From: Musa acuminata AAA Group | Lineage: Eukaryota; Streptophyta; Magnoliopsida; Zingiberales; Musaceae | DNA: 64,000 nt | Assembly (NCBI RefSeq): GCF_036884655.1 | Contig: NC_088356.1 | Span: forward strand, 14,037,501 to 14,101,500 | Direction of reading: 5' to 3' | In this document: one piece after another, positions 19,811-47,906 of the stretch | Position numbering within the stretch: the first letter of the stretch is position 1 | Layout of the letters: each line of letters starts with the position of its first letter | Notes under the pieces: model-generated | Databases searched by the model: none | Seen by the model: only the letters and a program-made list of their open reading frames with translations | Told to the model about the DNA's origin: nothing | Position numbers and translations under genes: made by a program

Positions 19811-19812
19811 TT

Positions 19813-19824
19813 TGGTATCAGAGC
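19813..19824 (+). other. G3 primer-binding site
   Basis: TGGTATCAGAGC starts two bases after the 5' LTR end and complements initiator tRNA-Met. Confidence 0.85.
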
Positions 19825-22654: not shown

Positions 22655-23173
22655 TGTTAGGACCCTTTTTCTGAGCTTTTGAATAATGTTTATTGAGTCT
22701 GTTTAGTCCAATTGTTATTGAGTCGGTTTGGTTCAGTTAGAGTCAAGTAGAGGTTTATTTAATATTTATTTATTATTAAAGTTCAAGTCCTGATGGACTT
22801 TGGGTGGAACTCTATAAATAGGGATGTAACTGCTTCTTTTAAATAATCTATGAAAAATACTATTCTGTTTTGGACAAACCCAAGGAGGCCGATCCCCTCG
22901 AAGTGATCAAGGAGGGTCGATCCCCTCGAAGCGATCAAGGAGGTCGATCCCCTCGAAGCGATCATTATCATCCTCATTTCTCCCCTTTCTCTTCTTCTTT
23001 TTTACGATACGACTTTAGGGTCTTATCAATTGGTATCAGAGCGACGATAAGACCTTTAGGGTCTTATCATTTGGTATTAGAGCGACGATAAGACCTTTAG
23101 GGTCTTATCAATTGGTATCAGAGCATCCCCATTTCTCCCCTTTCTTCCACGATAAGATATTAGGGTCTTATCA
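22655..23173 (+). repeat. G3 3' LTR
   Basis: It has exactly the same length as the 5' LTR (519 bases), with scattered substitutions. It carries the three internal PBS-like words and ends GGGTCTTATCA. Confidence 0.9.
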
Positions 23174-23942
23174 GCGCAGCAACGAGATGGAGACCCTACT
23201 TGATTGGTCGACGATTTCAAATTAAAACCGACCATAAAAGCCTTAAGTACTTTTTGGAGCGAAAGATATCATCCCCTGAGCAGCAAAAATGGGTAACAAA
23301 ACTTCTTGGATTTGATTATGAAATAACTTACAAAAAGGGGAAAGAGAATGTTCTTGCAGATGCGCTTTCGTAGCTACCCGAGCAAGCTGAAGTTTCGACC
23401 ATTTCACTTCCGACCAGCGACTTCCTTGAGGATATTAAGATGGAATGGCAAGAAGATTCAGATACTAGTAAGATTATAAAAAAATTGGAGGAAGCACCAA
23501 GCTTCGTGGCTCATTACAATTGGGACTCAAAAGAATTACACTATAAGGGACGCATTGTGCTTATGATAAATTCTACTTGCATCTTCACGAGCAGATTTTG
23601 GACAAAGTTATTCCACATGCAGGGTACTAAATTGAAAAGGAGTATGGCATATCACCCACAAATCAACGGCCAGACAAAAATTGTAAATAGGTGCTTGGAG
23701 ACAGCCCAAAGCCACCCACCAAATATGACAATCCAAGGAGAACTCCAGACCCAGCCAAGTGTCATTATTGATCGACGGATAATGACTCGACGACAACGAC
23801 CCACTATGAAAGTGCTAATACAGTAGGTGAACCTACTAACAGAAGATGCCACTTGGGAGAACTATGACGACTTGAAGATCAAATTCCCAAAATTCATGAA
23901 TCGTCAGCCTCGAGGACAAAGCTGATTTGAAGAGGACGGGTC
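23174..23942 (+). pseudogene. pol: A2 end of RNase H and deleted integrase
   Basis: Directly after G3 the A2 RNase H resumes with TRWRPYLIGRRF and YFLERKISSPEQQKW, and then DALS. The integrase start (YNWDSKELHYKGRIVL) is joined to FTSRFWTKLFHMQGTKLKRS, YHPQINGQT and NRCLE. The same AQSHPPNMT junction as in A1 follows, then DATWENYDDLKIKFPKF. Most of the catalytic core is absent. It ends with a polypurine tract (23929-23942). Confidence 0.8.
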
Positions 23943-24336
23943 TGTTAGGACTCTAGCTAGGAGAGTCCTAATTGAGAGGGACATTCATGTAAAACCTACC
24001 TATGCCGACCCCTATTAAAGAGGTGAAGAGGCCGGCTAGGGTTAGGAGATTGTTTCTTAGAGATGAATTAGGAGTTGTAAAGGAATATGAGTCTTGAGTA
24101 GAAGTCCTATTAGGAGTTGGTTATAAGTAGGAGTCTTGAGTAGGAGTCCTATTAGGAGTTAGGGTTTAGAAACCCTATAAATAGTCATGTATTCCTCCTC
24201 TTTTGATAAGCAATAGATAAATCTTTTCTACAGCCTTTGAGCGGCAACTTGGAGGGAGGAACCCCTATAGAGTTCCAAGAAGGCGGATCCCCTAAAGAGA
24301 TCAACCCCAAGTTTAGAATCTGCAAGGGTTCTAACA
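23943..24336 (+). repeat. A2 3' LTR
   Basis: A 394-base LTR from TGTTAGGACTC to GGTTCTAACA, with a CTATAAATAG box near 24174 and the ACTCCTA-type repeats of the A1 LTR on the complementary strand. The sequence after it is B integrase, so B was the insertion target. Confidence 0.86.
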
Positions 24337-25755
24337 TCATTTTGATGCAGCTCATCAAAGAAGGCAAGGCCCGACGATTTTGGGTCCAGGAGGGACTCGT
24401 GTACACAAAAGGGAATAGGGTTTATGTTCCTCGGGTGGACAATTTGAGGCGTGAACTCCTAAAAGAGTGTCACGATTCCCTTTGAGCTGGACACCCAGGT
24501 ATTCACCAAACATTGGTTCTCGTGGAGAGGGTCTTCTACTAGCCAAAGATAGGGATTGATGTGGAGGAATATGTTCGAATGTGCTTCACTTGCCAACAAG
24601 ACAAGGTGGAACAACGGAAGCCGGTGGGACTTTTGGAGTCGTTGCCCATACCAGAAAGGTTGTGGGAGAGCATTTCCTTGGACTTCATATCAAGCTTGCC
24701 ACTTGTAGGAAGACTCGGATCGATACTCGTGATGGTCGATCAGTTTTCAAAGTATGCAACTTTCATTGCTGCTCCCCTACACTGTTCAGTAGAAGAGGCG
24801 GCCAAGCTGATGATGAAGGATGTGGTGAAGTATTGGGGAGTCCCACACAATATCATCAGTGATCGAGACGCTCGGTTCCTGGGACGATTCTAGACCAGAT
24901 ATTCAAATTGTTGGGGTCAAAGTTATACTTCTCCACAAGCCTCCACCCCCAGACGGATAGCCAAACTAAAAGAATAAACTCGCTCTTGGAGCAATATTTT
25001 CGGCACTACGTGAGTGCCAACCAACGAGATTGGGTGAAATTGTTGGACATTGCCCAATTCTCCTATAACTTGCAGCGGAGCTCTGCATCCAACAAGAGCC
25101 CCTTCAAGATTATTACAGGACAACAACCGTCAACTCCTCACACCATGGCAATTGGGTATACTGGGAGTAGTCCGTCAGCTTACCACTTCACAAAGGAGTG
25201 GCACCGAAATGCAAATATTGTGCGGGCTTACTTAGGGAAGGCGGCAAGAAGAATGAAGAAGTGGGCAGACTTGGGAAGGCGACCGCAAGAGTTCAAGGTC
25301 AACGATTTGGTGTTGGTAAAGCTCCAACTAGCATCACTCCAATTCTTCAGGAACAAAATCCACAAAGGATTAGTGCGCAAGTATGAAGGGCCCTTCCCAA
25401 TTATCAGCAGGGTAGGCAATGTCTCCTACAAGTTGCAGTTGCCGGCGTGGTTCAAAATTCACAACGTTCTTCATGCCAGCAATCTAAAAGCCTACCACTC
25501 GGATTTGCAAGATGCTTCCCGAAGTGTTCCAACTCGGCTACCTCCCACAACTGCCTCCTACGAGAAGCGAGTTGAAACCATTCTAGCAGACCGTAAGATA
25601 AAGCTACCCAATGGAGCTAAGCTGACAGAGTACTTGGTGAAGTGGTGAAAGCTTCCCCGAACTGAAGTCAGTTGGGAGCCTAAAGATGCCCTACGACATG
25701 AAGAAGCAATCATCAACAACTACCAACAAGCGTCGATGAGGGCGTCAACGGTTTA
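24337..25755 (+). pseudogene. pol: Gypsy B integrase with C-terminal chromodomain
   Basis: It starts inside pol just before the integrase zinc finger (CHDSL...GHPGIH, then CFTCQQ), interrupted by stops at 24483 and 24539. The core has SLDFISSLP (first Asp) and ISDRDARF (second Asp), then a stop near 24891 and a frame change. In the next frame (24908-25648) LHPQTDSQTKRIN has Lys where the catalytic Glu of the triad is expected. After the GPFPI and LPAWFKIHNVLHASNLK blocks a chromodomain begins (EKRVETILADRK, YLVKW). It is cut by a TGA at 25646, and SWEP follows in frame. The chromodomain marks B as a chromovirus. Its 5' half is missing. Confidence 0.85.
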
Positions 25756-25768
25756 AGTGGGGGAGAAT
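25755..25768 (+). other. Gypsy B polypurine tract
   Basis: A purine run, AAGTGGGGGAGAA, lies directly before the LTR start TGTCACG. Confidence 0.8.
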
Positions 25769-26511
25769 GTCACGAACGGTCATCACGCACTCGCAATAAC
25801 TCCGTTCAACAAACCGTTCGTCGTTCACACCTACATATACAACTGCTTGACAACATATTTTGTCTTGGTTTTGGGTCATTTTGCTTGTAAAAATGTAAGT
25901 TCAAACAAGCTGCAGCATTACAAAGCAACCGCTCACCGAATCGAGCAAAACAGTCCCAAAACAGCCTAAAACAACTCTGTTTTTGTGTGTCGCGGGCTGA
26001 TTTATGGAATCTGCCTCCGCTCACCAAAATGTCAGCCATCTCAGCCCCTTGGAACCCCCCGGGTGGCACAGGGCTAGATGGGGCTTCGGTATAGTACTGG
26101 GCATTGAACACTCCTTCACAAGTTCGCACGTTGCCTTGACGGGGACTTGTTGTTGCGCTCGGGACTCGGTGAGCGGCTGTTTATGGGCTTGTAACTGTTC
26201 GTTCAACCTTCTAAAGCCCTTGTTTTCCCCCTCTCCCTCTTTTCTCTTGTGCATGCAAGGTGCTCCCTGAATTGCTTGTAAAGCTTCCCCTCTTTTCGCG
26301 AGACGTCGGGACTTGTCCGTCGCTCGTTCTTTCAAACTAATCAACTTTCTCTTTTACAGGTCCTTCGGGACCTGCGAGAGGTTACAAGTGGGCTGATCTT
26401 TGCAGAGCAATATCGCAAGGGCGAAGCGCGACTTAGGCAATGCAAGCTAAGTTCGCGTCTTGGCCGCAAGAGTGCCTCACGCCTTAGGTAATTCCAGCTA
26501 AGGCCGTGACA
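25769..26511 (+). repeat. Gypsy B 3' LTR
   Basis: A 743-base sequence runs from TGTCACGAACGG to GGCCGTGACA, so the ends form an inverted TGTCACG/CGTGACA pair typical of chromovirus LTRs. It abuts S2 LTR sequence at 26512. The 5' copy is absent. Confidence 0.82.
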
Positions 26512-27018
26512 GAATGTCCGGACTTCCGACAAACTCTCAAACTCCCAACAAAATCATGTTCTTGATTCTAGGACTTCATTTTGCTTTATGCCTTGTTATC
26601 ATAGTTAATCCTGGATATATAAAAACATACTTCGATCTAGACAATTATTACTAAGCATGAATCATGTCATCTGGCATGTCATTGGTCCATCGACGCTTCG
26701 TATGATTCTTCGGCGCATTATCCTCTCTTGCAGCCTATTGCCCAATTAGCTAGTTGACCTCCGCAACTCTGATATCCTTGGCATAATATCCACTCTTCTT
26801 GGCCTGATGCCTGAATCAATGGCCCGAAGCCTTTTATCGATATGTCGACCGATCCTCCGGCCCGATGTCCAATCTTCTAACATGTTTTCCTCCGGCCCAA
26901 CATAATTCTTCCTACTTTAATTGTCTCTCCCTAATCGAAGCATCGTACGTCACTCAAAGCGTAGATCAAATCATAAATACTATCAATTGGTTTCATCATC
27001 AAAGTTCGAGATTCAATA
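26512..27018 (-). repeat. S2 3' LTR, proximal half
   Basis: It matches 31558-32064 of the S2 5' LTR. The minus-strand start reads TATTGAATCTCG at 27018, one base from the usual TGTTGAATCTCG. Confidence 0.84.
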
Positions 27019-29502
27019 ATCTCTCCCTTTTTTATGATGACAACCAATTGATGACGGTGTTAACCTTAACTCCCGAAGTTTAAACAAACTCCCCCTATCA
27101 ATATGCCATATTGATAGAACCTTGAATTCAAGCTGAATTCAAGTCATTGCAAATTTTATCATAAATATTTGTAACACATCATCATGCATAACATGATCAT
27201 ACTTCTCCCCCTTTGTCATCAACAAAAAGGAGAAGTTCCAACTATCAAGTGTTTGTGATATAAGTTCAAATCATTGCATAAAAAACATAATATCAAGTTT
27301 TATCATCATGCAATTTGTAAGCTAACAAATTTAGCAAGTGTTACATCATGCAAGCTATCAAGTTTTAGATATGCAAGGTAGTAAGATAGCAAGTTTACAA
27401 TATACAAGCTAGCAAAAATTTCGAAAGTAAATGCAAGATAGCTTTCTTGTTGAAGTGTGTAAGATAGAGATTCTTGCTTCCTCTTGTAATTTGTAAGCTA
27501 AGTTTTGTTTCTTAAGATTGGTAAGATAGTGATGTTCAAGATAGCAAGCTCTTTCTTCTCTTTTGAGAAGTGTCATTTTTGCTTCTTTGCAAAGTGCAAG
27601 CTAGCAAAATTTTACATTATTTTATAACAATCAAGCTAGCAATTTGACAAGTATTACTTCTCTTTGAAGTATAAAGACTAGCAAGTTTTTAAAAAATAAT
27701 ACAAGATAATAAGCTAGCAAGATACAATGTTTTACATGAAGCAAGCTACATGAAGTACATTTGCATCTTCAATTTAGATGTGCAAGCAAACAAGCAAGTT
27801 TTTGCATCTTCTTGACTTATACAAGCTAGCTAGCAAGCTAGCTATCTCCCCGTTTGTCATTGTAAAAAAGAAGGGAAGAATACAATTTTGTATCTCTTTG
27901 TCCCTTTACAATAATTTTCAAATCATGACAAAGAATAAATAATCAAAGATGAAAAATCAAGTTATGAATGTCAAAACAATTTTTCATCATCAATATTTTA
28001 TCATTGCATGCATCATTATCATAAGTTGAAGTATTGTATGCATAATATCAAATCATCATTCATAATTACATTAATGTTTCAATTATTATTTTAATATGTT
28101 TGTGCATCATTATAGTTTCAATTTACAACATGCACAATTTTAAAACTTTACATATCATTCTTACTCTATGCATGATACTAAAAATAAATCAATCATCATA
28201 TCATACATGATACTCATAAGCTAGCAAATTTATATCATTTTAGAGCATCAAAACAATATCATGAGTATTCATGTATTCATATCATCAATGTTTCAATCAT
28301 TATTTCAATCATCAAAAATGAAAGATCAAGTCTAAAATTCAAGAGATCAAGATCATAATCTAAAAAATGTATAAGAAGAATTTATTCATTTGGAATATCT
28401 AACATGTCTAAGTTTCTCATTTAAGCTAGCATTTTTCTTTCTCCCCTGTGTTATTGTAAACAAGGAAGAAGTAGAGTGGAATAATACAATTTTCACATCA
28501 ATGCTCTACTTATTACATGAGGTTTACAACTATAAATACAAAGGAATTTGCATATCATGTCATGAAAGATAATAATATCAAATCATGAATGTCACAAGAC
28601 ATGATTTATTTAATCAAATTTATTTTTATAAATAGCAAAAAGAAACCTAGGAGATCAAATGATATAATATCTTGATTTATGCATAAGAAATCTCAAGTTA
28701 TAAATCTCGAAAAATCAAGATAAGTCTTATTCAAATTCAACTCATCAAAATCATTTTCATGATCCAAGAGATTCATAAAAGTGATATAAATAGATTCGTT
28801 AATCTCCTTTTTGGAAAAATCGATAAAGTAGGAAAAAATAAATTTTTCAAGGAGAAACCTTTCCTCTTTTTAGTTGTTTCAATTCATGTGATTTATTTTA
28901 TTTATGCCAAATAAAAATATGCATCAACGTTTAAAAACCGAAAAAGCCACTTTCATTACCGTAAAAATCGATAATCCATAAATCTCAAGAATCATCATGC
29001 ATAATTTCGAAATTTATTAAGCATGATCATTATGCATGACATTAAAACATGATTTCAAAATATTTAATATTTTCATTATATAATTACATCATTATGCATC
29101 ATCGAAATTGATTGCATCAAACATAAAGCATTTTCCATCAAGATAATTTTGTTGTTGTAGTCATGCATTTTTCTTTTTAGGTGAATCTAACTTTTCATGC
29201 TTAGTTTTTCATACAGAAGCTATGCATCATCGTTAAGCAGAATATAAAACTTCTTAATATTTTCATTAAGACATCATGGTTTCAATCAAAATTGGAAATC
29301 ATCAAGATACACATTATTTCTTCTTGAAAAATAAACATAGGATCATTATATTTAAATTTAACATTTTATTCCATTACATAAAATATGTAATTTTCATTAT
29401 CATTTTCAAAATTACTAGCATGATTATATTTTTTTTGCATTTTCATTTTTAAACTTGTAATTTTCAAGAAAAATAATCATTCTAAACTAAATTAAAAATA
29501 AC
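27019..29502 (-). other. S2 AT-rich 3' noncoding region
   Basis: This is the minus-strand counterpart of S1 7089-9746: a polypurine tract near 27019-27033, a CTCCCCCTTTGTC block near 27203, degenerate CTAGCTTGCA repeats (27320-27850) and long AT-rich stretches. No protein is supported. Confidence 0.75.
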
Positions 29503-30435
29503 TCATGAAAAGCATCTTGTAATTTTGAAATAAATTAAAGGTATTTTGATTACCTCATCCTCGAATACCGTTAAGGCATAGTTTGCCCCCTCGCCTTTGT
29601 TTTTCTCCTCGTCTTCGGATGAGCTTGATTCGTCCAAAGTCGCATTCTTCTTCTTTTTAAGTTCATTTTTAATTTTCAATTCTTGTTTTAAAAATTTCAT
29701 GAGGAGTTCAAGTTCACCATCACTTGAGCTTATGCTTGAGTGGACTTTAATTGTTCTAAGTCCTAAATGCTTCCTAATCTTTGGAAGGTGGTTCTCAAGT
29801 TCTTCACGTGCATTGCACGTCATTTCATAGGTCATCAAAGACCCTATAAGTTCTACAATTGGTAAATGGTTCAAGTTTTTTTATTCTTCAATAGCCGTTA
29901 CTTTTAAATTTCAAGTTTTAGAAAGTGAGTGTAAAACTTTATTCACAAGTTCAAGATTCGAAAAACATTTGCCAAGAGCTTTTAAACTATTGATGACATC
30001 CGTAAAGCGGGTGTACATGTCAACAATAGTTTCGCTCGGCTTCATTTGAAACAACTCGAAATCATGCACTAAAAAATTAATCTTTGAATCTTTTACTTTA
30101 TTCATGCCTTCGCATATGATTTCAAGAGTGTGCCATATATCGAAAGTCGTTTCGCAAGTAGAAACCAGAAACCTAATTAAACTCAGTTTTATCTAAAATG
30201 CAAAATAAGACATTCATAGCCTTTGCATTTACAGAAAAAGTCTTTTCTCCAAATCATTCCAATGGTTCATTGGAAGAGAAGACATTCGAAAATCATTTTC
30301 AATAATACTCTATAAATTTAAATCCAAGGAAAGTAAGAAAACTCTCATTCGAGTTTTCCAATATATGTAGTATGTCCCATTGAACAAGGGAGGACGAATG
30401 AGAGTGTGACCCTCTTGAAAGCCGAAAAGAAGCAT
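29503..30435 (-). pseudogene. gag: S2 short Gag, decayed
   Basis: It is read leftward from an ATG at 30433-30435. The order of blocks is that of S1 Gag: RPPLFNG, YWKTRMRVFLLSLDL, the FDIWHTLEI region, VHDFELFQMKPSETIVDMYTRFTDV, SLKALGKCF, LIGSLMTYEM, an acidic SSSSEDEE tail and YFKIT near the end, before a final stop at 29503. Stops and frameshifts occur near 30290, 30240, 30190, 29910 and 29875. Like S1 it lacks zinc knuckles and any pol sequence. Confidence 0.83.
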
Positions 30436-30471
30436 TTCTCTTGGGTGTTAAACCAAATGAGAAATTACGAG

Positions 30472-30483
30472 GCTCTGATACTA
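30472..30483 (-). other. S2 primer-binding site
   Basis: The minus strand reads TAGTATCAGAGC, one base from the initiator tRNA-Met complement TGGTATCAGAGC, two bases after the 5' LTR. Confidence 0.8.
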
Positions 30484-30485
30484 AT

Positions 30486-32064
30486 TGTTAGGAAAAGAGT
30501 CGGCACTAAGAGGGGGGTTGAATTAGTGCAGTAGTAAAAATTATGTCGATTCAAAACTTCATTACGATTAAATCCATTTCCGACAAAAATCCATTTCGTA
30601 AAGGTATTAACTTTGAAAGCGTATGAAAGAGCATAGTGGATGTAAAGCAAGTAAAGTGGTTTGCAGTAAAATAAATTACATAAGAGAAACGCAAACCAGA
30701 TTTTTATAGTGGTTCGGTCATCATGACCTACATCTACTTCGTCGATTCCTCTTCCGTCGAGGTCACCGGCATCCACTATAGGTCTTCTTTTAATGGGCAA
30801 AGACCAACTACCATTTTACACCCCTCTTCTCCTTTTTACAGGTTTAGGAGACAACCTTTTACAACTCTCTTTTACAAGGTATCCCTCTCACACCTCCCTT
30901 AGAACTCTCTCTAAGCTTTGGGAGGAGGGAACTCAACTTTCTAAGGTTTACAACTTTAGAATCATAGGGTTTTGCTCAGTATTTCTTACTAATATATGCA
31001 GAAATATCTGGGGTATTTATAGGCCCCAAATGGATTCAAATTTGGAGCCCAAAATTCAAACCTCCGAAATTTTAGGGTACGGGCGGTACCACCGCCTGCA
31101 CTGGGCGGTACCACCACCTGCAGCCTGACACTGGGCAGTACCACTGCCTAGACAGTCTCAGATACTGAGTCTAGGTGGTACCACCACCCAGACTGGCGGT
31201 ACCACCACATGACACAGTCTCGGAAACTATGCCACGACGGTTTCACCTGTTTGGTCTTTCTCTTGGCCCAACACAGCCAAAACTTGGCCCAATTGTCCCC
31301 TAATTAGGTTGGCCCAATTCTAATCCCTATTATGTACTAACTATAAATTTTAAGATATTTACTAAGCTAAACAAAGTCTGTAAGTCTAGGTTTCTTCCGG
31401 TGAGCTTCCGACGATCTTCTGGCGAACTTCCAGCGATCTCTCGATAATATTCCAATGGATTCCTAGCAAGCTCCTAGACTTCATGATGATCTTCAGTTCT
31501 GATGAGTTTCTTTGGCAAGCTCTGGGACTTCTTGGTCAATTTTGACAGAATTTTCGACGAACGTTTGGACTTCCGACGAACTCTCGAACTCCCATCGAAA
31601 TCACCTTCTTGATTCTGGGACTTCATTTTACTTTATGCCTTGCTATCAAAGTTAATCTTGGACAGTAAAAATACACTTCGATCTAGATAATTATTACTAA
31701 GCATGAATCATGTCGTCCGGCATGTCATTGGTCCATCAATGCTTCGTCCGATTCTTCGACGCATCGTCCTCTCTTGCGGCCTATTGCCTAATCGGTCAGT
31801 TGACCTCTGCAACTCCAATGTTCTTGGCACAATATCTACCCTTCTTGGCCTGATGCCCGAATCCATGGCCTGAAGCCTTTTGTCGATATGTCGACCGATC
31901 CTCCGGCCTGATGTCCAATCTTCTAACATATTTTCCTCCGGTCCAATATGATTCTTCCTGCTTTAATTGTCTCTTCCCGATCGAAGCATCCTACGTCACT
32001 CAAAACATAGATCAAATCATAAATACTATCAATTGGTTTCGTCATCAAAATACGAGATTCAACA
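30486..32064 (-). repeat. S2 5' LTR
   Basis: A 1,579-base LTR on the minus strand starts TGTTGAATCTCG at 32064 and ends GACTCTTTTCCTAACA at 30486. TATAAATA lies at 31014-31021. Upstream of it (31080-31210) are five or more GGCGGTACCACCGCC-like boxes. Toward the LTR start, GGAAGTTCGCC-like repeats resemble those in S1 and D. Confidence 0.87.
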
Positions 32065-32575
32065 ATAGCCTCAACATTGAGGGCTACATGGACTTAAGTT
32101 TCTAGTCCGACGTCGATAATAGCAAGTCAAACTAAAAATATATGTTCACTTTAAATAAAGGAGTAGTAAGCTGGAAGAGTTCAAAACAAGATACTACTGC
32201 TTGCTTGACCACTAAGGTAGAGTATATTATTGCAACAAAAATAACAAAGGGGGCAATCTGGATGAAGAAGTTCATCACAAATCTAGGAGTCATATGAGGT
32301 AGTAAAGAGTCAATTCCACTATATTGCGACAACATTGGGGCAGTTGATTAAGCAAAGAAACTTAGGTCTCATCAAAAGTCGAAGCACGTTATGAGGAGGT
32401 TCCACTTGATTAGAGAGATCATAGCTTGTGGTGACATAGTAGTGGAAAGAGTTCTATCTAAAGATAACATTGAAAGATTCACTAACAAAGTCATTATCTC
32501 AAATTGTTTCGAGCATCACCAGGACTTGATGGGGATCAAGCATTTGGGTGATTGGCTTTAGCACAAGTGGGAGAT
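32065..32575 (+). pseudogene. pol: Copia C2, end of RNase H
   Basis: It resumes C2 after S2. ATAGCCTCAACATTGAGGGC matches the C3 RNase H near 45489-45510. The TTKVEYIIATKITKGAIWMKKF-like block, the CDNIGAV-like block and the end DWL before the stop at 32561-32563 are visible in pieces. An AAGTGGGAGAT polypurine tract precedes the LTR. Frameshifts and stops interrupt it. Confidence 0.8.
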
Positions 32576-34264
32576 TGTTAGTTACAAGTGCCCTATAAGC
32601 CAATCACGTAAGTGATAGCACATGTGATACGCTACACAATCTCTTTTAGTTAATATTAATAATGATATTTTTTCACTTTATATTATATGATGAATATATA
32701 TTATGATATCTTTGGATTTATGCAATATGAATTAGATTATGATGAGATCATGATAATGTGACTAATTCACCTTTAAACATAGATGCTAAATATTCTTGAT
32801 CATAGGTTACTCAAGAGGGACATCGAGATAACCGGACAGACTGGTGTGCAATATACCTATTCATATGATGGAGGCAATTGGTCTTATAACTACTTCTGTG
32901 GGGACACTAGGGATATAGTATAAGTACTTATTGGATAATGAGTTAAATGAATAATCTACTTACGAAATGATGGATGGTTAATGATACCTAATTGTTAGAT
33001 AGTGATATCGTAGTCCTAGTTATATATCTAGTCCTTAGACTTGAGATACCAAGGATGTCTTATTTGAGTATTTCATTTTTTAATATCGAACTTATAGATT
33101 TGGAGGTTCTGGATCTAGTATAGATAGTCATTGGGAATAGTAGCCAACCTTATAAAGGTAATTGAGTATTAATAGAGGATCATCCACTCTCAGTATCATG
33201 AGAGAAATATCCTATATGTTTTCGTGTAGAAAAATCCATGGCCATGTTCAATCTAATTGAGAGAATCCAATACGAGAGAGACTCGAATTGAGAGAAAAGT
33301 TCTTTAGGAAAATCCGATAAGAGTGAGACTTGGATTGATTTCGTACGGGCCTGATAGTACCATATCCGGTATATGGTCTTAGGGATATTAGATGGATAAG
33401 GGATTATATACATGGTAATTAAGGATAAACATGTCCAATGGATTAGATCCCCCTATACCATTTGAAGACTATGGCATAGTAACATAATACATCCATAGTC
33501 GATGAGTTGAGTGAATTATTATCCCATAATAATTCACTAAGTAAAAAAGAGTTCTAACAGGTGCAACTCACAGCTAGCTCGATATTAGGCTAGAGGATCA
33601 TACATATATAGTGGACAACTTGACGAATAGAGGATTAGATATAGGATATCCAATAAGTTCCTATTTTAATGGATCCATTGGGTGAGACCTAATAGAGCTT
33701 AGAGTGGTTATTGGTTTAGGATCCAATACCTATTAAGCTAGTGGTTATTAGATGGGGATTCAATACTCGTTAAGATATATCTATTAGGGTTAGCAACAAG
33801 AGCTCTCTAGAAATAGGAGTTAGGACTTCATAAGTCATAGGCTAGACCCTATACCCACTGGCCTTCTATCTCCTCCTCTCCATCTCTCCTTCAGCCGTGA
33901 GCCCCTCCTTGGCATGAGAGGATAGCAAGAGGGCTGGCCCCTCTCTTAGTTGCGGCTACATGGTGGTGCGCGATCATGAGGAGAGAACCCACTACACAAG
34001 GAGGTGCCTTATCACTGCATCTATTGTATGGATCACCACGAGAAAGGAGTTTGTGAGAGCTCCTTCATCCATGGATTGAGATATATGATTTAGAAGATAT
34101 ACAATCATCCCTATGTGAGAATGCCTCAACCACTTGATGCAGTTTTGTTTTTTGAGTTTTTCACTCCTGATTATTGCATGATGATCCGATAAGATCTATT
34201 TTGGGAATACTTTTTGTTTTTATTTTCTACTGCACATGTGATGTTCTCCTAAGGTTTCCTAACA
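32576..34264 (+). repeat. C2 3' LTR
   Basis: A 1,689-base LTR starts TGTTAGTTACAAGTGCCC and ends GGTTTCCTAACA. It is the diverged counterpart of the C3 LTRs, with the same order (CCAATCACGTAAGTGATAGCAC, AGGTTACTC, AGGGACACTAGGGATA, GTATGTCCAATGG-like, CAGCTCGATATTAGG). Confidence 0.85.
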
Positions 34265-38212: not shown

Positions 38213-38813
38213 TGTTAGGATCGGAGTGGCACTAAGAGGGGGGGGTGAATTAGTGCAGCGGTAAAGTGTGATAAACTTTTGACGATTTAAACACTTTCAA
38301 AAACTTCATACGATAAAAGTAACGTTTTCGTTTGAAACCGTTCGATTGCGTTTTAGCTTGAAGAGATAAGTAAGACGGAGACAAAGAAGCAAAGCATTAA
38401 AGTGCAAATGGTTTGTAGTAATGTAAATGACAATAAGTAAATGCAAACCAGAAATCACGCCGATTTTACAGTGGTTCGGTCAAATGACCTACATCCACTT
38501 GCGAGGCCCCTCTTCGATGAGGCTCCCACCTTCCACTAGCAAATCTCTTGAAATGGAAGGGCAAATACCCCTCTTACAACTTTTTACAAGCGGTTCACTC
38601 TCTTACAGATTTTCAGCAAGAAAGAAGGAGGTGAACACTAGCAAATTGAAAACAAGACTAGCAAAGACTTTTCTAAGACTTTTCTCTCAAACAATTGCTG
38701 CTCAAAAAGTTGTATTCTCAGCTGAGACTTGAGGGATATTTATAGGCCTCAAGAGGATTCAAATTTGGGCTCCAAAAATTTGAATTCTCTTATGTTCCCG
38801 ATGTTGGCGGTGC
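38213..38813 (-). repeat. Sirevirus LTR S4, distal part
   Basis: A minus-strand LTR whose 3' end (TGTTAGGATCGG on the plus strand) starts at 38213. It resembles the D LTRs: a G-run, an AGTGGTTCGGTCAAATGACC block, a minus-strand TATA box at 38737-38744 and the adjacent AAATTTGGGCTCC half palindrome. It is split at 38813 by C3 and continues at 47493. Confidence 0.83.
38809..38813. repeat. Target-site duplication of C3, left copy
   Basis: GGTGC lies before the C3 5' LTR and is repeated at 47488-47492 after the 3' LTR. It falls within a GGCGGTGCCACCGCC box of S4. Confidence 0.93.
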
Positions 38814-40310
38814 TGCTAGTCATAGGTGCCCAGCAAGCCAATCACGTGAGTGATGGCACGTGTGACTTGATACAGAATCTTTTTGCTTATTATATTTTGG
38901 CGTATATCACTTTATAACTATTGCATAAATGCATATATATATATTGTGATGTCCTTGGATTTGTGCAATGGGAATCGGATCGTGATGAGATCACGATAAT
39001 GAGATCGATTCACCTTTAAACACATATCCTAAATAATCCCGGTCATAGGTTACTCGAGAGGGACATCGTGATAACCGGATAGACTAGTGTGCTATATACC
39101 CGTCCATATGATGGATGCAGCTGGTCTCATAGCTGCTCGTGTAGGGACACTAGGGATACAGTACAGGTGCTCATTGGAGAATGAGTTCACTGATTGATCC
39201 GCTTACGGAATGCTGGATGGTTGATGATGCCTTATTGTCAGACAGTGATTCCGTAGTCCTAGTGGTGTATCTGGTCCTTAGACTTGAGACACCAAGGATG
39301 TCCTGTATAAGTGCTCCACTCTTTGATACCAGACTTATAGGTTTGGCTGTTCCCAGATCTAGTACAGCTGGCCATTGGGAGTGGTAGTCGACCTTACGAG
39401 CGCTATTGAGTGTCAATAGAGGATCATCCACTCTCGGCGTCATGAGAGGAATATCCTATGTATTCTTGCTCAGACAAATCCCTGGCCAGGGTCATTCGGG
39501 TTGAGAGAGAAAGAGTTCTCCGGGAGAATCCGATTAGAGCGAGACTTGAGTAGAAACCGTATGGGTCTGACAACACCATGCTCGATATACGGTCTCTGGG
39601 ATATTAGATGGATGAGGGACTATAGGTACATGGTAACTGAGGACAGACAGGTCCAATAGATTGGATTCCCCTGTATCGTCTGGGGACTACTGCGTAGTGG
39701 CCTAGTACGTCCGTAGTCGATGAGTCAAGTGAATTATTACAGAGATAATAATTCACTCAGTCATAGGGAGTTCTGACAGGTATGACTCACGGCCAGCTCG
39801 ATATTGGGCCTATAGCGTCACACACATATGGTAGGCATTGCGATGAGTAGAGGTTCGGATATGAGATATCCGACGGAGCCCTTGTCTTATTGGATGCAGA
39901 TCCAATACCCACTAGGGAAGGACCCATTAGGGTTTGACACGGGATCTCTATAAATAGGAGGGATTCACAGCCTCATAGGCTAGAGTCTTTGCTTGCCTTT
40001 CCTATTCTCCTCTCCCTCTCCACCTCAAAGTAGGCCTGAAGTTTTGAGGAGCGTCGTCGCAACCCTGCTGTGTGGATCACCGCTAGAGAGGAGGACGCTT
40101 GACCTCCTTCACCCTCTCCTAAGGATCTGCAAGGAAACAGGGATATACGATCTCCCTAGGTAACACAATCTCTATACGCAGTTTTGTGTTTTGCGGATTT
40201 TTTGCGCACCAATCTTCGCACGACGACGAACATCTTTTTGGGAATCGGGGATTTTGTTTTCTTGTTTTTCCGCTGCGCATATGATGTCGCCCCCCAATGA
40301 TTTCCCAACA
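38814..40310 (+). repeat. C3 5' LTR
   Basis: It starts TGCTAGTCATAGG and ends GATTTCCCAACA. An inverted repeat, ATCGTGAT-GAG-ATCACGAT, lies at 38979-38997. The TATA box is at 39949-39956. The last 150 bases contain a TTTTTTGCGC stretch and GACGACGA. Confidence 0.93.
39949..39956 (+). promoter_or_regulatory. TATA box of C3 5' LTR
   Basis: TATAAATA in GATCTCTATAAATAGGAGGG. The 3' LTR copy is at 47129-47136. Confidence 0.8.
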
Positions 40311-40311
40311 G

Positions 40312-40323
40312 TGGTATCAGAGC
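40312..40323 (+). other. C3 primer-binding site
   Basis: TGGTATCAGAGC lies one base after the 5' LTR, complementary to initiator tRNA-Met. Confidence 0.88.
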
Positions 40324-40399
40324 CAGGTTGTTCGTGCGAATGATTGGTTTTGAACTGCGTGTATTGTGTTTAGGAAGAATTTTGACGTCAAAATCGTTG

Positions 40400-40890
40400 A
40401 CGCAAAAGCGAGGAAGGGCAGCAACAGTTGCTTCCCTCGATCTGCATGCCTGCAGCCACCTGCAGCGGCAGCCGCAACCGCAGCCAGGCAGCACAGCGCC
40501 GGCGCATGCGCAAGCGCTGTGTCTGCAGCAGCCGGCCGGCGGCCTGCTTGCAGCAGGCTTGCTGCCGGCGGGGCTGGCAACCCACGGGCAGAGGCGCCGC
40601 AGGGCAGCGTCGCCTGCTGCCGAAAGGAAGTGGCGCCTGCCGCCGCAGGGCAGCGACGCGCGACGCCTGCCGCCGCTGCTCCCGCGGGCGAAACCCCCCC
40701 ACAGGGGCGGCCGCCCGGCGGTACAGCACCGCCTGCGGAGGCAGCGGCGCCCGAAGGGGGCGCCCACCCGCAGCGGCATCGCCGCCAGCGGGCGCGCCGC
40801 CTGCAGGCGAGGGCAGTGCCCTCGCCCCGCCGCACAAGCAGCCGCCGGCAGGGTGGCGGCGGCGGCAGCAGCGAAAGGGGGAAAGGGCAT
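40400..40890 (+). other. GC-rich segment of the C3 leader
   Basis: About 490 bases are extremely G+C-rich (CpG, GCC and CAG words), in sharp contrast to the AT-rich sequence on both sides. Several overlapping frames on both strands are open by composition alone (Ala/Gly/Pro/Arg-rich), without a domain or a favoured frame. It may be secondary-structured leader RNA or captured foreign DNA. I do not call a protein. Confidence 0.65.
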
Positions 40891-41663
40891 TAGGGTTTTC
40901 TGGGAAAAAGACAGTTTTGCCCCTCGGAATTTGAGAAATTCCAGTTTCTATCTTTTATCAAAATTACGAAAATACCCTTAGGAATTGAGAAATTCCCTAT
41001 ATATCCCTGATTTCAGAAATTATTAATTAATTAAAAGGTTTAGTTGATTATTATTTTTATTATTATCTAGTAGTCCTACATGATGATGATTATTTATACA
41101 TGTGATGTATGATGTGTGGACGGATGATCATGGACCGTGTGATGTGTGTACTTGTGATTATTGTTATTGAGGTCTGCGAACCTCCATTATATTTCTCGTT
41201 TATTGTCGGGCCTGCGTGCCTATGATTAAGTTGTAATCTCACGAGGAGGCGCAGCGGGAGCGTGGATGCGATAGCGGGACCCACGATACGGACGATCGTG
41301 ATGCATGGAGATGCATCAAGATGTCGACGAAACCGACGAGGACGAGATGGACGATCACAGGGCATGGAGATGCACCGTTGCACACATAGATCTTGATGTG
41401 AGTGATTAGGCCTACTGGCTCGGGCCTAATCATATTACGTTGTGGTCCATGATCATCTAGTGTGATTACTTATACACATACTAGATATGTATATATATTT
41501 GCATGCGATGTAGATATATATTAAATATGTATATGTGTGACATGTCATATTAGGAGATCAAATCATAGAAACATCTCTCGATAATATTAAGTCGGTAAAC
41601 GTGAGGCAATTAGATTGACCCACGTGGCCTTCCATCGTTATGAGTATGAACTGATTCCCGGTG
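40891..41663 (+). other. C3 leader, middle part
   Basis: Ordinary-composition leader with short direct repeats (GAATTTGAGAAATTCC and GAATTGAGAAATTCCC near 40928 and 40982) and TA-rich stretches near 41480-41545. I see no conserved frame. Confidence 0.5.
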
Positions 41664-41699
41664 TAGGTTGAGTTGGTCGAGTCCCTCGAGACTCACCTA
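41664..41699 (+). other. C3 leader hairpin 1
   Basis: The lower stem TAGGTTGAGT (41664-41673) pairs with ACTCACCTA (41691-41699) with one bulged T. The apex TTGGTCGAGTCCCTCGAG (41673-41690) forms an inner 5-bp stem TCGAG/CTCGA closing a TCC loop. Confidence 0.7.
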
Positions 41700-41755
41700 T
41701 ATCGCGATTCGCTATCTTGCTTACGACATAGAGATGTCACCGGTGACCTGAGGGC

Positions 41756-41792
41756 ATGGTATGCTTGGTCGAGTCCCTCGAGGGTATATCAT
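41756..41792 (+). other. C3 leader hairpin 2
   Basis: The lower stem ATGGTATGC (41756-41764) pairs with GTATATCAT (41784-41792): nine pairs, two of them G-U. The same 18-base apex lies at 41765-41782. Confidence 0.7.
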
Positions 41793-41830
41793 CAAATCAG
41801 ACTCATCTTGTAACGAAGGTGTTGACTTAA

Positions 41831-41876
41831 CCGAGCATCATGGTTGGTCGAGTCCCTCGAGGCCATGGTGATTCGG
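41831..41876 (+). other. C3 leader hairpin 3
   Basis: The lower stem pairs CCGAGCATCATGG (41831-41843) with CCATGGTGATTCGG (41863-41876), leaving a small internal loop. The same apex lies at 41844-41861. Confidence 0.7.
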
Positions 41877-41937
41877 AGGCCGAACAGGACGGGAATCATA
41901 AGGAGTTGTGATCGGCAAGAGTTGCCTACCTTTTAGG

Positions 41938-41976
41938 CTTAGTGTGATTGGTCGAGTCCCTCGAGGTTGCACTAAG
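41938..41976 (+). other. C3 leader hairpin 4
   Basis: The lower stem CTTAGTGTGA (41938-41947) pairs with TTGCACTAAG (41967-41976), with two G-U pairs. The same apex lies at 41948-41965. A further simple hairpin, GAAGTCT/AGACTTC, is at 42004-42022. Confidence 0.7.
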
Positions 41977-42161
41977 ACGCTGATTGGATCCTGATCCCCA
42001 CTAGAAGTCTGCCGGAGACTTCCGTTTCACGTGCTGAGGGTGTCGCGTGACTCGTTAGTAAAATAGTGGGAGCATATTAAGATAGAAGTTCATATCTTGA
42101 TAGTTTATTTCTTGCAAAATCTGCATGTTATACATTTCTGCTACATCTTTATTTTCAAAAA

Positions 42162-43076
42162 ATGTCGCTTTCAAATCCCTTACGTGGCATACTTGATGTC
42201 AACCGCCTCACTGGTCCAAATTATATGGATTGGCTCCATAACTTGAGAATTGTTCTCACAGCGGAGAAAATCGTGTACGTCCTTGATACAGTGATGCCTA
42301 CGCCCGAAGAAGGGGCAAGCGAGGATGAGATCGCTCGCTACGTGAAGTACATTGATGACTCCAATCTTGCTCAGTGCTATATGTTGGGCTCTATGACTCC
42401 AGAGTTACAGAGACAACATGAAAAGATGGATGCCAGATCCATTCTCCTACATGTCCGCAAATTGTTTGAGGAACAGGGAAGGACTCAACGATATGAGATA
42501 TCCAAGAGCCTTTTCCGCGCTAGGATGACTGAGGGGACACCGGTTCAGAACCATGTCCTAAAGATGATTGAGTGGATAGAGAAACTCACAGGTCTAGGAA
42601 TGGTCCTAGAGGATAACTTGTGTGGGGACATTGTGCTTCAGTCCCTACCAGATTCCTTTTCACAGTTCATAATGAATTTTAATATGAACAAGCTTGAGGT
42701 GACTCTCCCAGAGCTCCTCAATATGTTGAGGGAGGCAGAGAGTACTATTAAGAAAGAGAAGCCAGTTCTCTACACTGGTGAGACCAGAAAGAAAAAGAAA
42801 GCAGAAAGGTCCCTTAAGAAGGGAAAGGGCAAGGGCAAACAAGGTAAAGCAAAGGTTGCTAAGAAAGACCCAACAAAGGACAAAGGCCAGTGCTTCCACT
42901 GTGGTAAAGATGGGCATTGGAAGAGAAACTGCAAAGAGTACCTTACAGAAAGGGCGAAACAAAAGCTTGATGAAGCTTCAGGTACATTCATGATCAGTCT
43001 CCATTTGTCAGAATCTTATGATAACACATGGGTATTGGATACTGGTAGTGCTTATCATATATGCAATTCGTTGTAG
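42162..43076 (+). CDS. gag: C3 Gag and start of protease, ending at an in-frame TAG
   Basis: The open frame of 304 codons begins ATGTCGCTTTC. Gag N-terminus: [19 protein letters not shown], typical of copia Gag. The centre has [15 protein letters not shown] and [11 protein letters not shown] lysine-rich stretch (residues about 205-235) precedes the CCHC knuckle [14 protein letters not shown] (residues 244-257). Protease then begins with [15 protein letters not shown], the catalytic DTG at 43038-43046. A TAG at 43074-43076 ends the frame, but the same frame is open downstream from 43113, so the stop falls inside protease, not at the Gag/Pol border. Gag itself is complete and could be made. Confidence 0.9.
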
Positions 43077-45302
43077 GTTCTGGCAAGGCCTAGGAGACTT
43101 GAGAGAGGCGAGATGGACCTCAAGATGGGTAATGGAGCAAAAGTTGCTGTAGTAGCTATTGGCGAGGTCACCTTACATCTGCCTAGTGGATCTTTTAATG
43201 CATTAGATGCATGTTATTTTGTTCCTTCTATTATCAAAAACATTATCTCCATTTCATGTTTAACAGTTAGTGGATATAAATTTGTTTTTGAGAACAATGG
43301 TTGTTCAATATTATTAGATGATAAGATCATCACAAAAGGAACATTGCATAATGGTTTATTTATGTTAGACACTACTCCACATATCATTAATGTAAATGTG
43401 TCTAAAAGGAAACGAGATGAGTTGAACAGTGCATACTTGTGGCATTGTAGGCTAGGTCACATCCATGAAAGAATGATTCAAAAGTTGCTAAATGATGGAT
43501 ATCTAGATCCATTCGACTATATGTCTTATGCAAGTTATGAGCCTTGCATTCGTGGAAAATTGACCAACTCTCCATTTAGTGGAACTAGAGAGAGAGCCAC
43601 TGAGTTGTTGGAACTCATACATAGTGATGTATGTGGACCCATGTCAACTCATGCCATTGGAGGTTACTCCTACATTACATTTACTGATGATTTCTCAAGG
43701 TATGGATATGTGTACTTAATGAAGTACAAGTCCGAGGCATTTGAGAAATTCAGAGAGTATAAGAATGAGGTGGAGAACCAGACTGGAAAGAGTATCAAAA
43801 CTCTTCGATCAGAACGAGGAGGTGAGTACTTAAGTACAGAGTTTACTCAGTTCCTCAAGGACCATAGGATATTATCCCAATGGACACCTCCTTACACACC
43901 TCAGCTCAATAGTGTCTCTGAAAGGAGAAATCGTACGTTATTAGATATGGTACGGTCCATGATGAGTTTCGCTGACCTACCCATCTCATTCTGGGGATAT
44001 GCCTTAGAAACCGCAACTTACCTTCTGAACAGAGTTCCAACTAAGTCGGTAGTGTCTACACCATATGAGATATGGAAAGGGAAGAAGCCTGATCTTAAGG
44101 TTGTTAAGATTTGGGGCTGCCCTGCCCACGTTAAAAGACACAACCCCGATAAGTTAGAATCAAGGACAGAGCGATGCATATTTGTGGGATACCCCAAGGA
44201 AACTTGTGGGTATTACTTCTATCATCCCGAGGACAAAAAGGTCTTTGTAGCTAAGAGAGCAGTGTTCCTTGAGAAGGAACACATTCTTGGCGGAGACAGT
44301 GGGAGAATGATAGAGTTGAGCGATGTTAGAGAACCAAGCTCAAGCACCACTCTACAGCCCGAGTCTGTTCAGGTACCTAATACACAAGTTTCAACTTTAC
44401 GCTGGTCTGATAGAGTATCTCATCCTCCTGAGAGATATGTGGGACATATAAGAGGAGAGGATGCTGTGGATATTGATCCTCAGACCTACGAGGAGGCTAT
44501 TATGAGTATAGACTCCGGGAAGTGGCAAGAAGCCATGAATTCTGAGATGGATTCTATGTACTCCAATAAGGTTTGGAACCTAGTTGATGCGCCCGAAGGT
44601 ATTGTACCCATCGGTTACAAATGGATCTTTAAGAAAAAGATCGGAGTAGATGGAAAGGTAGAGACCTATAAAGCAAGGCTAGTGGCTAAAGGGTATCGTC
44701 AAAGACAAGGTGTTGACTACGACGAAACCTTCTCACCCGTAGCAATGCTAAAATCCATCAGAATTCTATTGGCTATTGCAGCACACTATGATTATGAGAT
44801 CTGGCAGATGGATGTGAAAATCGTATTCCTCAATGGGAACCTCGAGGAGGAGGTGTATTTGATGCAACCTGAGGGATTCGTGTCCAAGAACTGCCCAGAT
44901 AAAGTGTGTAGGTTGCTTAGATCCATTTATGGACTAAAGCAAGCTTCCCGAAGTTGGAACATAAGATTTGATGAGTCAATCAGATCTTATGACTTCATTA
45001 AGAACGAAGATGAGCCTTGTGTGTACAGGAAGGTAAGTGGGAGCGCTATCACCTTTTTGGTGTTATATGTGGATGACATCCTCATCATTGGGAATGACGT
45101 AGGAATGCTATCCACAGTAAAGACTTGGTTATCTAGACACTTCTCCATAAAGGACTTAGGGGAAGCATCCTATATCTTGGGGATTAGAATCTATAGAGAT
45201 AGATCCAAGAGGATGCTTGGCTTGTCCCAGTCCAGGTACATAGAAATCATTGTCAAAATGTTTGGCATTGAAAATTCTAAGAAAGGGCGAACATGGATAT
45301 GA
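43077..45302 (+). pseudogene. pol: C3 Pol: protease end, integrase, reverse transcriptase
   Basis: In frame with gag after the TAG. The integrase zinc finger has WHCRLGHIHE, but its CxxC reads YEPC (Tyr codon 43536-43538). The core shows LIHSDVCGP, then LRSERGGEY with Glu where the second catalytic Asp is expected (43812-43814), then SERRNR with the catalytic Glu. RT has [25 protein letters not shown] and the catalytic YVDD at 45066-45077. After GIENSKKG about 60 bases present in C2 (near 16740-16800) are missing and the frame ends at 45302. The integrase changes alone would probably prevent integration in cis. Confidence 0.88.
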
Positions 45303-45970
45303 TACCTTATGCCTCAGCAATATGGTATATCATGTATGCCATGCTATGTACTAGGCCTGATATAGCGCATGCTCTGAGTGTCACGAGCAGGTATCAGGCG
45401 GATCCAGGCTTGGGGCACTGGAAAGCAGTAAAGTGTATCCTTAAGTACTTGAGAAGGACTAAGGATCTTTTACTAGTATATGGAGGTAATAGCCTTAAGG
45501 TTGAAGGCTTCACTGACTCAAGTTTTCAGTCTGATGTCGATGATAGGAAGTCGAATTCAGGGTATGTGTACACCTTGAATGGAGGAGCAGTGTGCTGGAA
45601 GAGTTCCAAACAAAATACCACTACTGACTCGACCACAGAGGCGGAGTACATTGCTGCATCAGATGCAGCAAAGGAGGGAGTCTGGGTGAAGAAGTTCATC
45701 ACAGATTTGGGAGTCGATACAGATAGCGACAAGTCGACTTCCTTATATTGCGACAACTATAGGGTGATTACTCAAATAAGGGAACCCGGGTCTCATCAGA
45801 AGTATTCTGAGGAGGTTCCAGCTTATAAGAGAGATCGTAACCCGAGGAGATGTAGTAATGGAAAGAGTTCCATCTGAAGATAACATTGCAGATCCACTGA
45901 CAAAGTCGTTGTCTCATATTGTCTTTGAGCGTCACAGGGGTCTGATGGGGATCAGACACATAGGTGATTG
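45293..45970 (+). pseudogene. pol: C3 RNase H, frameshifted
   Basis: It opens in a different frame from RT after the deletion. The order is CTRPDIAHALSVTSRYQ, FTDSSFQSD (first catalytic Asp), [13 protein letters not shown] (Glu) and LYCDNYRVI, in which Asp is kept but the following residues are changed. After QKYSEEV another frameshift leads to an early stop at 45875. The usual end GDWL is visible in another frame at about 45965. Confidence 0.85.
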
Positions 45971-45979
45971 GCTTTAGGT

Positions 45980-45991
45980 CAAGTGGGAGAT
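45980..45991 (+). other. C3 polypurine tract
   Basis: CAAGTGGGAGAT directly precedes the 3' LTR; C2 has the same tract before 32576. Confidence 0.8.
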
Positions 45992-47487
45992 TGCTAGTCA
46001 TAGGTGCCCAGCAAGCCAATCACGTGAGTGATGGCACGTGTGACTTGATACAGAATCTTTTTGCTTATTATATTTTGGCGTATATCACTTTATAACTATT
46101 GCATAAATGCATATATATATATATTGTGATGTCCTTGGATTTGTGCAATGGGAATCGGATCGTGATGAGATCACGATAATGAGATCGATTCACCTTTAAA
46201 CACATATCCTAAATAATCCCGGTCATAGGTTACTCGAGAGGGACATCGTGATAACCGGATAGACTGGTGTGCTGTATACCCATCCATATGATGGATGCAG
46301 CTGGTCTCATAGCTGCTCGTGTAGGGACACTAGGGATACAGTACAGGTGCTCATTGGAGAATGAGTTCACTGATTGATCCGCTTACGGAATGCTGGATGG
46401 TTGATGATGCCTTATTGTCAGACAGTGATTCCGTAGTCCTAGTGGTGTATCTGGTCCTTAGACTTGAGACACCAAGGATGTCCTGTATAAGTGCTCCACT
46501 CTTTGATACCAGACTTATAGGTTTGGCTGTTCCCAGATCTAGTACAGTTGGTCATTGGGAGTGGTAGTCGACCTTACGAGGGCTATTGAGTGTCAATAGA
46601 GGATCATCCACTCTCGGCGTCATGAGAGGAATATCCTATGTGTTCTTGCTCAGACAAATCCCTGGCTAGGGTCATTCGGGTTGAGAGAGAAAGAGTTCTC
46701 CGGGAGAATCCGATTAGAGCGAGACTCGAGTAGAAACCGTATGGGTCTGACAACACCATGCTCGATATACGGTCTCTGGGATATTAGATGGATGAGGGAC
46801 TATAGGTACATGGTAACTGAGGACAGACAGGTCCAATGGATTGGATTCCCCTGTATCGTCTGGGGACTATGGCGTAGTGGCCTAGTACGTCCGTAGTCGA
46901 TGAGTCAAGTGAATTATTACAGAGATAATAATTCACTCAGTCATAAGGAGTTCTGACAGGTATGACTCACGGCCAGCTCGATATTGGGCCTAGAGGGTCA
47001 CACACATATGGTAGGCATTGCGATGAGTAGAGGTTCGGATATGAGATATCCGACGGAGCCCTTGTCTTATTGGATGCAGATCCAATACCCACTAGAGAAG
47101 GACCCTTTAGGGTTTGACACGGGATCTCTATAAATAGGAGGGATTCACAGCCTCATAGGCTAGAGTCTTTGCTTGCCTTTCCTATTCTCCTCTCCCTCTC
47201 CACCTCAGAGTAGGCCTGGAGTTTTGAGGAGCGTCGTCGCAACCCTGCTGTGTGGATCACCGCTAGAGAGGACGCTTGTCCTCCTTCACCCTCTCCTAAG
47301 GATCTGCAAGGAAACAGGGATATACGATCTCCCTAGGTAACACAATCTCTATGCGCAGTTTTGTGTTTTGCGGATTTTTTGCGCACCAATCTTCGCACGA
47401 CGACGAACATCTTTTTGGGAATCAGGGATTTTGTTTTCTTGTTCTTCCGCTGCGCATATGATGTCGCCCCCCAATGATTTCCCAACA
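45992..47487 (+). repeat. C3 3' LTR
   Basis: Near-identical to the 5' LTR, with TATAAATA at 47129-47136 and the inverted repeat at 46159-46177. Only scattered substitutions and small indels separate them. Confidence 0.93.
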
Positions 47488-47906
47488 GGTGCCACCGCCC
47501 AGCGCTCGGGTGTTGGGCGGTGCAACTGCCCAGCCCAGGAGGTGTCACCGCCTAGGCCAAATCAGCTCACTGGTTGGGCTCCAAACTTGGCCCAAACCAG
47601 TCCGAACTCGGGCCCAATTGGCCCCTACTTGGGTTATAGGATTAACACCTAATTCTAACCCTAATTAACATGCTAACTATGAATTTAAAGACATTTTCTA
47701 AGCTATTACAAAGTTCGTAAGTCAAGACTTCTTCCGGCGAGCTTCCGGCGAACTTCCGGCGGTTTTCCGATAAACTCTTGGAAACCATTCTGCGGACTCC
47801 CGGCAAGCTCCTAGACTTCACGATTTGATCTTGGCGAGTTTCGTTGAGCTTCTTCGGCAAGCTCCGATCTTTCTCGGTGAGCTTCGCGAACTTCTAACGA
47901 ACCTTC
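47488..47906 (-). repeat. Sirevirus LTR S4, proximal part
   Basis: It continues 38213-38813 after the duplicated GGTGC. GGTGCCACCGCCCAGC boxes come first, then the GCCCAATTGGCCCCTA block and GGCGAGCTTCCGGCGAACTTCC repeats. It is cut at 47906, before the LTR start, by S5. Confidence 0.82.

Follow-up and report, generated by a model that had tools for sequence, protein, structure and literature searches.

A Predicted Four-Hairpin RNA Array with a Constant Apical Module in the Leader of a Ty1/copia Retrotransposon from Musa acuminata

Structure of the Host Element

The array reported here is hosted by a structurally complete Ty1/copia LTR retrotransposon of Musa acuminata AAA Group. It was found in a 64,000-nucleotide stretch of contig NC_088356.1, which is called the window below and whose numbering is used throughout. 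The element has a pair of LTRs, a TSD, a primer binding site (PBS), gag, and pol with integrase ahead of reverse transcriptase, as Ty1/copia elements do. The 5′ LTR (38814..40310, + strand) has TG...CA ends and contains TATAAATA at around 39949. The 3′ LTR (45992..47487, + strand) is 98.1% identical to it, and the TSD GGTGC is present at 38809-38813 and at 47488-47492. The PBS TGGTATCAGAGC (40312..40323, + strand) is presumably the initiator-tRNA-Met PBS of plant copia elements. The untranslated leader extends for 1850 nt from the PBS to the gag ATG (40312..42161, + strand). It is followed by the gag ORF (42162..43076, + strand), which encodes 304 aa with Retrotran_gag_2 and one CCHC zinc knuckle, and by a pol ORF segment (43113..45302, + strand) of 729 aa with pre-integrase, integrase, SH3-like, and RVT_2 domains. 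The gag and pol frames are separate in the list of open reading frames.

Among the best 120 of 597 protein matches to gag, the top match shows 96% identity over 88%, and the nearest named relatives are three entries from Ensete ventricosum (75-78% over 67-77% of the query) and one from Musa textilis (92% over 40%), which very probably places the host in the banana family.

The other elements in the 64-kb window include no second copy of the array-bearing leader. An older relative of the element is located at 15208-17000 and 31559-33651, with pol and LTR sequences about 74-80% identical. It was apparently split by a nested insertion from around 16996 to 31110, and its leader was not found. Two further features were observed in or near the leader of the array-bearing element itself. 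The region at the end of the LTR and the start of the leader (40156-40981) is GC-rich and contains overlapping open frames of 217 aa (+ strand) and 244 aa (− strand). A perfect 14-bp inverted repeat (41123-41136 and 41444-41457) encloses a second structured domain of the leader (41123-41457), which includes a strong hairpin at 41402-41433; one window in this domain has a z-score of −5.0.

Four Hairpins with One Apex

The first-pass annotation of this DNA reported an 18-base sequence repeated four times in the leader, and the repeat was recovered exactly: the 18-mer TTGGTCGAGTCCCTCGAG is present at 41673, 41765, 41844, and 41948, with spacings of 92, 79, and 104. No further copy with three or fewer mismatches was found on either strand of the 64-kb window (mean expected number, 0.00).

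Each copy caps a hairpin on the + strand. Hairpin 1 (41659..41704) has its apex at 41673-41690 and 5 + 8 outer pairs separated by one bulged T. Hairpin 2 (41756..41792; apex 41765-41782), hairpin 3 (41836..41870; apex 41844-41861), and hairpin 4 (41938..41976; apex 41948-41965) have 10, 9, and 11 outer pairs, respectively, together with a T-G pair adjoining a bulge. The outer stems thus have 9-13 pairs, where 9-12 had been claimed, and hairpin 1 attains its length through the one-base bulge. All four share one predicted fold. From the base upwards it consists of an outer stem that varies between copies, a U-G pair, a bulge of two unpaired G in the 5′ strand, the 5-bp stem UCGAG/CUCGA, and a loop of UCC. 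The inner TCGAG/CTCGA stem around TCC had already been recognized in the first-pass annotation; the invariant GG bulge and the U-G pair below it are additions of the present analysis.

The array (41659-41976) lies between the PBS (40312) and the gag ATG (42162), about 185-503 nt upstream of the latter. The distance from the end of hairpin 4 to the ATG is 185 bases, where the first-pass annotation gave 190.

The hairpins are predicted both when folded alone and in a 2.28-kb context from the presumed transcription start to about 100 nt into gag. In this context the inner TCGAG/CTCGA pairs have probabilities of at least 0.93, the T-G pair beside the bulge 0.64-0.87, and the first four outer pairs of every hairpin at least 0.95; the bases of the GG bulge and the TCC loop stay unpaired with a probability of 0.98 or higher. 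The fifth outer pair of hairpin 1 reaches only 0.50 because of its bulge.

The apex and the arms differ sharply in conservation. No substitution is seen across the 4 × 18 apex positions, and the arms agree between copies at just 2-6 of 10 bases. The first-pass description of the four stems as unrelated in sequence is therefore largely correct, except that hairpins 2 and 4 have 6 of 10 left-arm bases in common. Among the first 10 flanking positions, 7, 10, 9, and 10 are paired in hairpins 1-4, and the 7 of hairpin 1 become 13 outer pairs in all once one bulged T is allowed. When arms from different copies are matched together, 5-8 of 10 pairs are formed.

Two other candidates were considered and rejected. 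A tRNA-like T-loop reading of GGTCGAGTCCC was dropped because the T-loop consensus is not matched by its loop of seven bases. Another LTR-bearing element in the window, with repeats at 19292-19810 and 22655-23173 that are 96% identical, contains three tandem repeats of 27-28 nt in each copy (19520-19601 and 22881-22964). These repeats, which directly follow a TATAAATA box, include GGYCGATCCCCTCGAAG or a near form; in the best copies, 13 of 15 bases agree with the array apex GGTCGAGTCCCTCGA. They were rejected as a second array, since they are without such stems and do not form the same hairpins.

Covariation and Strand of the Folded Molecule

The covariation analysis covers the four hairpins of one leader, from one copy of the element, and one hairpin of one relative described below. 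With the arms of the four hairpins arranged as columns, 93.8% of the cells are paired, and pairing is kept through both-sided changes in 8 of 16 pairs. In 500 shuffles, the observed value was not reached once on any of the five measures used. Pairing falls to 37.5-50% when the partner is shifted by 1-3 columns.

As a natural control, the 16-mer was found once each in 32 unrelated stretches of public viral contigs. The number of flanking pairs out of 10 in these stretches was 1 (three stretches), 2 (six), 3 (six), 4 (ten), 5 (four), 6 (two), and 7 (one), so that none had 8 or more. The window has 68 clusters of repeated 12-mers, with adjacent 12-mers of one repeat counted as separate clusters; in only 4 of them does every copy cap a stem (at least 8 of 10 pairs), and all 4 belong to this motif. 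Two-copy arrays of the motif were absent from the genome contigs and viral contigs searched.

Energy statistics are less striking for single hairpins. With shuffled flanks, a fold at least as stable was obtained in 1, 68, 47, and 68 of 3000 trials for hairpins 1-4, which means that the single hairpins, save the first, are only moderately unusual (three outliers at about 2%), and it is the set that is striking. The z-scores of 90-nt windows average −1.21 over the array (24 windows), −0.75 over R-U5 and the leader before the array (108 windows), and −0.59 over the start of gag (62 windows); the value of the array is not a strong global signal.

The outer stems comprise 33 Watson-Crick pairs, 10 G-U pairs, and no A-C pair, and the T-G pair by the bulge is invariant. 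The partial use of G-U pairs had been pointed out in the first-pass annotation. Every G-U pair would be an A-C mismatch on the other strand. This makes gag-sense RNA the most likely molecule to be folded, rather than DNA or an antisense transcript.

The RNA array itself is well supported. The apex does not vary by a single letter, and in the stems only the pairing is preserved; this is plainly the pattern of a scaffold that presents a recognition surface. The earlier proposal of a structured RNA with a constant apex thus gains support from the pairing, the both-sided changes, the use of G-U pairs, and the related hairpin described in the following section.

Related Elements

The gag protein was searched for in bacterial assemblies. 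Fourteen stretches matched, and two of them, designated L033 and L034, encode a relative, with gag identities of 46% and 35-36%, respectively. These plant-type copia gag contigs come from the assemblies of Geminicoccus harenae and Streptomyces fumigatiscleroticus and are probably plant contamination. A protein labelled as Modestobacter marinus (P0096) is also a copia gag relative, again probably from plant contamination. Searches of viral contigs with gag, integrase, and reverse transcriptase revealed no relative, and tblastn with gag gave no match in plasmids and phages.

A covariance model was built from the four hairpins, as the first-pass annotation had suggested, and its outcome in the relatives was mixed. 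In the window, the strong matches are the four hairpins of the array only, the next best scoring 14.3 bits (E 0.09). L033 has one match (2085-2136; 17.2 bits, E 0.0017 in 10.3 kb), 460-511 nt upstream of its gag ATG, and no hairpin of the array architecture was found in the upstream region of L034. In L035, a viral contig whose gag alignment matches the knuckle only, the first 990 bases contain no such hairpin. The L033 hairpin consists of an outer stem, a T-G pair, TT[GG] with the GG bulged, a 5-bp stem CTGCA/TGTGG, and a GATA loop. It has the architecture of the array with a different apex, and it is a single hairpin, not an array.

Within the window, a descriptor of the architecture found only the array, with 4 hairpins on the + strand and none on the − strand. 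It found 1 in L033 and none in L034. Its background was 1 in 597,336 strand-bases of viral contigs and 2.75 per Mb in first-order random sequence of L033 composition, and shuffling of the L033 upstream region gave a descriptor hairpin in 11 of 2000 trials. Because the descriptor was composed after the model match was known, the covariance-model match is the cleaner test. With the L033 hairpin added to the alignment, TT, GG, and the T-G pair are still invariant, and pairing is again kept through both-sided changes, in 10 of 14 counted pairs, a count that omits two inner pairs put out of register by an alignment gap. A 22-nt block common to the L033 leader and the array leader (95% identity, E 1.7 × 10−4) hints that the two leaders may be of common descent.

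Several smaller similarities were observed among the leaders. TTCCATCGTTA is common to 41630-41640 and L034:770-780, at −532 and −518 from gag, and is not significant alone (E 3.6). GTGGGAG is present 96 nt before the gag ATG here (42066) and 85 nt before it in L033 (2511), and also in the presumed polypurine tract ahead of the 3′ LTR (45983). Since pol has two more copies (44299 and 45037) and L033 has others elsewhere, the similarity may be due to chance. An acceptor-like pyrimidine tract with AG closes the leader just before the gag ATG in L033 (2570-2595) and L034 (1265-1287). A pyrimidine tract is present here too (42140-42161), without AG at that place. The leader of this lineage may be an intron.

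Possible Functions of the Array

The reading that we consider best, with a probability of roughly 0.45, is that the array is a protein-docking RNA element of the sense transcript, a packaging signal similar to Psi and read by the element's own Gag. Protein recognition, Gag as the reader, and packaging as the outcome are what we infer from the architecture. Four stems of free sequence would each hold up one constant apical module (U-G pair, GG bulge, UCGAG/CUCGA, and UCC), and a protein would read the module, with the stems merely supporting it. The likeliest reader would be the Gag of the element, and the bulged guanines would be bound by its zinc knuckle. The four sites would provide avidity, mark the full-length RNA, and nucleate its packaging into virus-like particles, as the Psi region does. 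If the leader were spliced from part of the transcripts, which is a conjecture, the hairpins would be present only on the unspliced RNA and could act as a packaging mark.

Retroviral Psi regions lie between the PBS and gag, and the position of the array before gag, together with its multiplicity, fits a packaging signal. The unpaired letters of the module are GG and UCC, and the Gag of this element carries a CCHC knuckle. The CCHC knuckles of HIV-1 NC are reported to bind guanosines that are exposed or only weakly paired (PMC7395439), and the zinc finger of Ty3 is called critical for packaging (PMC4974528).

The covariation and the use of G-U pairs would suit any protein reader. A host RNA-binding protein could read the module and so govern how the unspliced transcript is exported from the nucleus, localised, or stabilised. 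Some retroviruses have constitutive transport elements, and elements for export or localisation can look like multicopy sites in a long leader. We regard a host reader as unlikely: the array has no match in Rfam, we know of no host motif with its apex, and the element supplies a zinc-knuckle protein of its own.

A role in translation is rather more doubtful. The array would either help ribosomes past the long leader, by internal entry or shunting, or repress translation in favour of packaging. There are 41 ATGs from the presumed transcription start to the gag ATG, which makes plain scanning improbable, and the array is located about 185-503 nt ahead of the gag ATG. Plant pararetroviruses are described as shunting past structured leaders (PMC2241666, PMC5902531). 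The shunt described there employs short ORFs and a single stable stem-loop; small hairpins repeated with one constant apex are not part of it. The acceptor-like ends of the L033 and L034 leaders also speak against this role, since the leader may be spliced.

Dimerisation, with the hairpins of two RNAs paired together, is given little probability. The apex does hold the palindrome CTCGAG, and CTCGA in any copy is a possible pairing partner for TCGAG in any other. For Ty1, a model of dimerisation with two kissing-loop interactions has been put forward (PMC5454406). The loop is UCC in all four hairpins, neither self-complementary nor mutually complementary, and thus forms no classical kissing loop, which makes kissing-loop dimerisation unlikely. 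A search for partners of the apex and its complement elsewhere in the element gave nothing above the shuffled level, with best scores of 18 and 20 against shuffle medians of 18 and 18 and 95% points of 21 and 22.

Similarly improbable is the idea that the array is a relic of gene conversion or local duplication, or a DNA-level element (a protein site or cruciform) with no RNA role. It might draw on the family being known here from one copy and on the left-arm resemblance between hairpins 2 and 4. Against it, duplication would have copied the stems too, which here are diverged and compensated, the ten G-U pairs without an A-C mismatch point to RNA of one strand, and a similar hairpin lies upstream of the gag of a distant relative, L033.

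Docking of Gag on the array may have a wider meaning. A plant Ty1/copia lineage may mark its genomic RNA with an undescribed module (U-G pair, bulged GG, 5-bp stem, and small loop), single in some families and in others multiplied into an array with identical apices on stems that evolve freely, which would be the first defined Gag-docking code of plant retrotransposons. This generalization is tentative and somewhat unlikely as a whole. How plant LTR retrotransposons set RNA to be packaged apart from RNA to be translated is known mainly from BARE. The module here is compact, comes in four replicates within one leader, has a defined unpaired GG, and allows simple controls in which a stem is broken, so that a docking code would be directly testable.

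Comparison with Known Systems

A scan of 38800-47500 with 4227 Rfam families gave four matches below the gathering score, none of them in the array. The 16-mer sequence is absent from the open-licence literature searched, and the portions of that literature available contain no apparent description of such an array in a plant retrotransposon. The main text of a recent survey of plant structured RNAs (PMC12218528) includes no word beginning with "transposon" or "copia".

The nearest parallels are found in RNA viruses. The SL5 of coronaviruses, part of the 5′ region containing the start codon, has UUYCGU loops on SL5a and SL5b (PMC12513883, whose reference list names studies of packaging signals). 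It resembles the array in that one constant loop motif sits atop two large stem-loops. It differs in having a hexaloop instead of a bulge-plus-stem module, in belonging to an RNA virus, and in forming one junction, not a spaced array. The dispersed packaging signals of ssRNA viruses and HBV, for example those with -RGAG- loops, also consist of many stem-loops with one short recognition motif (PMC7612645, PMC8472981). Their motifs are short, genome-wide, and degenerate in STNV (PMC6475782), whereas the array has 18 identical bases four times within about 300 nt.

The Psi of HIV-1 shares with the array the leader position and several exposed or weakly paired guanosine sites for a Gag with CCHC fingers (PMC7395439). 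Its highest-affinity sites are at three-way junctions, with no array of identical hairpins; for the array, binding by Gag is a proposal.

Among LTR retrotransposons, Ty1 and Ty3 have packaging and dimerisation regions in the 5′ part of their RNA (PMC4974528, PMC5454406). The Ty1 region is formed by a pseudoknot in the first 326 nt and by hairpins with complementary apices, and no repeated apex is mentioned in the abstract that describes it (PMC5454406). BARE of barley is a plant Ty1/copia element with an untranslated leader, and BARE2 is said to have conserved signals for dimerization and packaging (PMC3735527). No repeated hairpin array is described in the passages on these signals. A repeated constant loop on different stems is thus a known kind of structure from RNA viruses, and this instance and its apical module are new as far as the literature searched is concerned.
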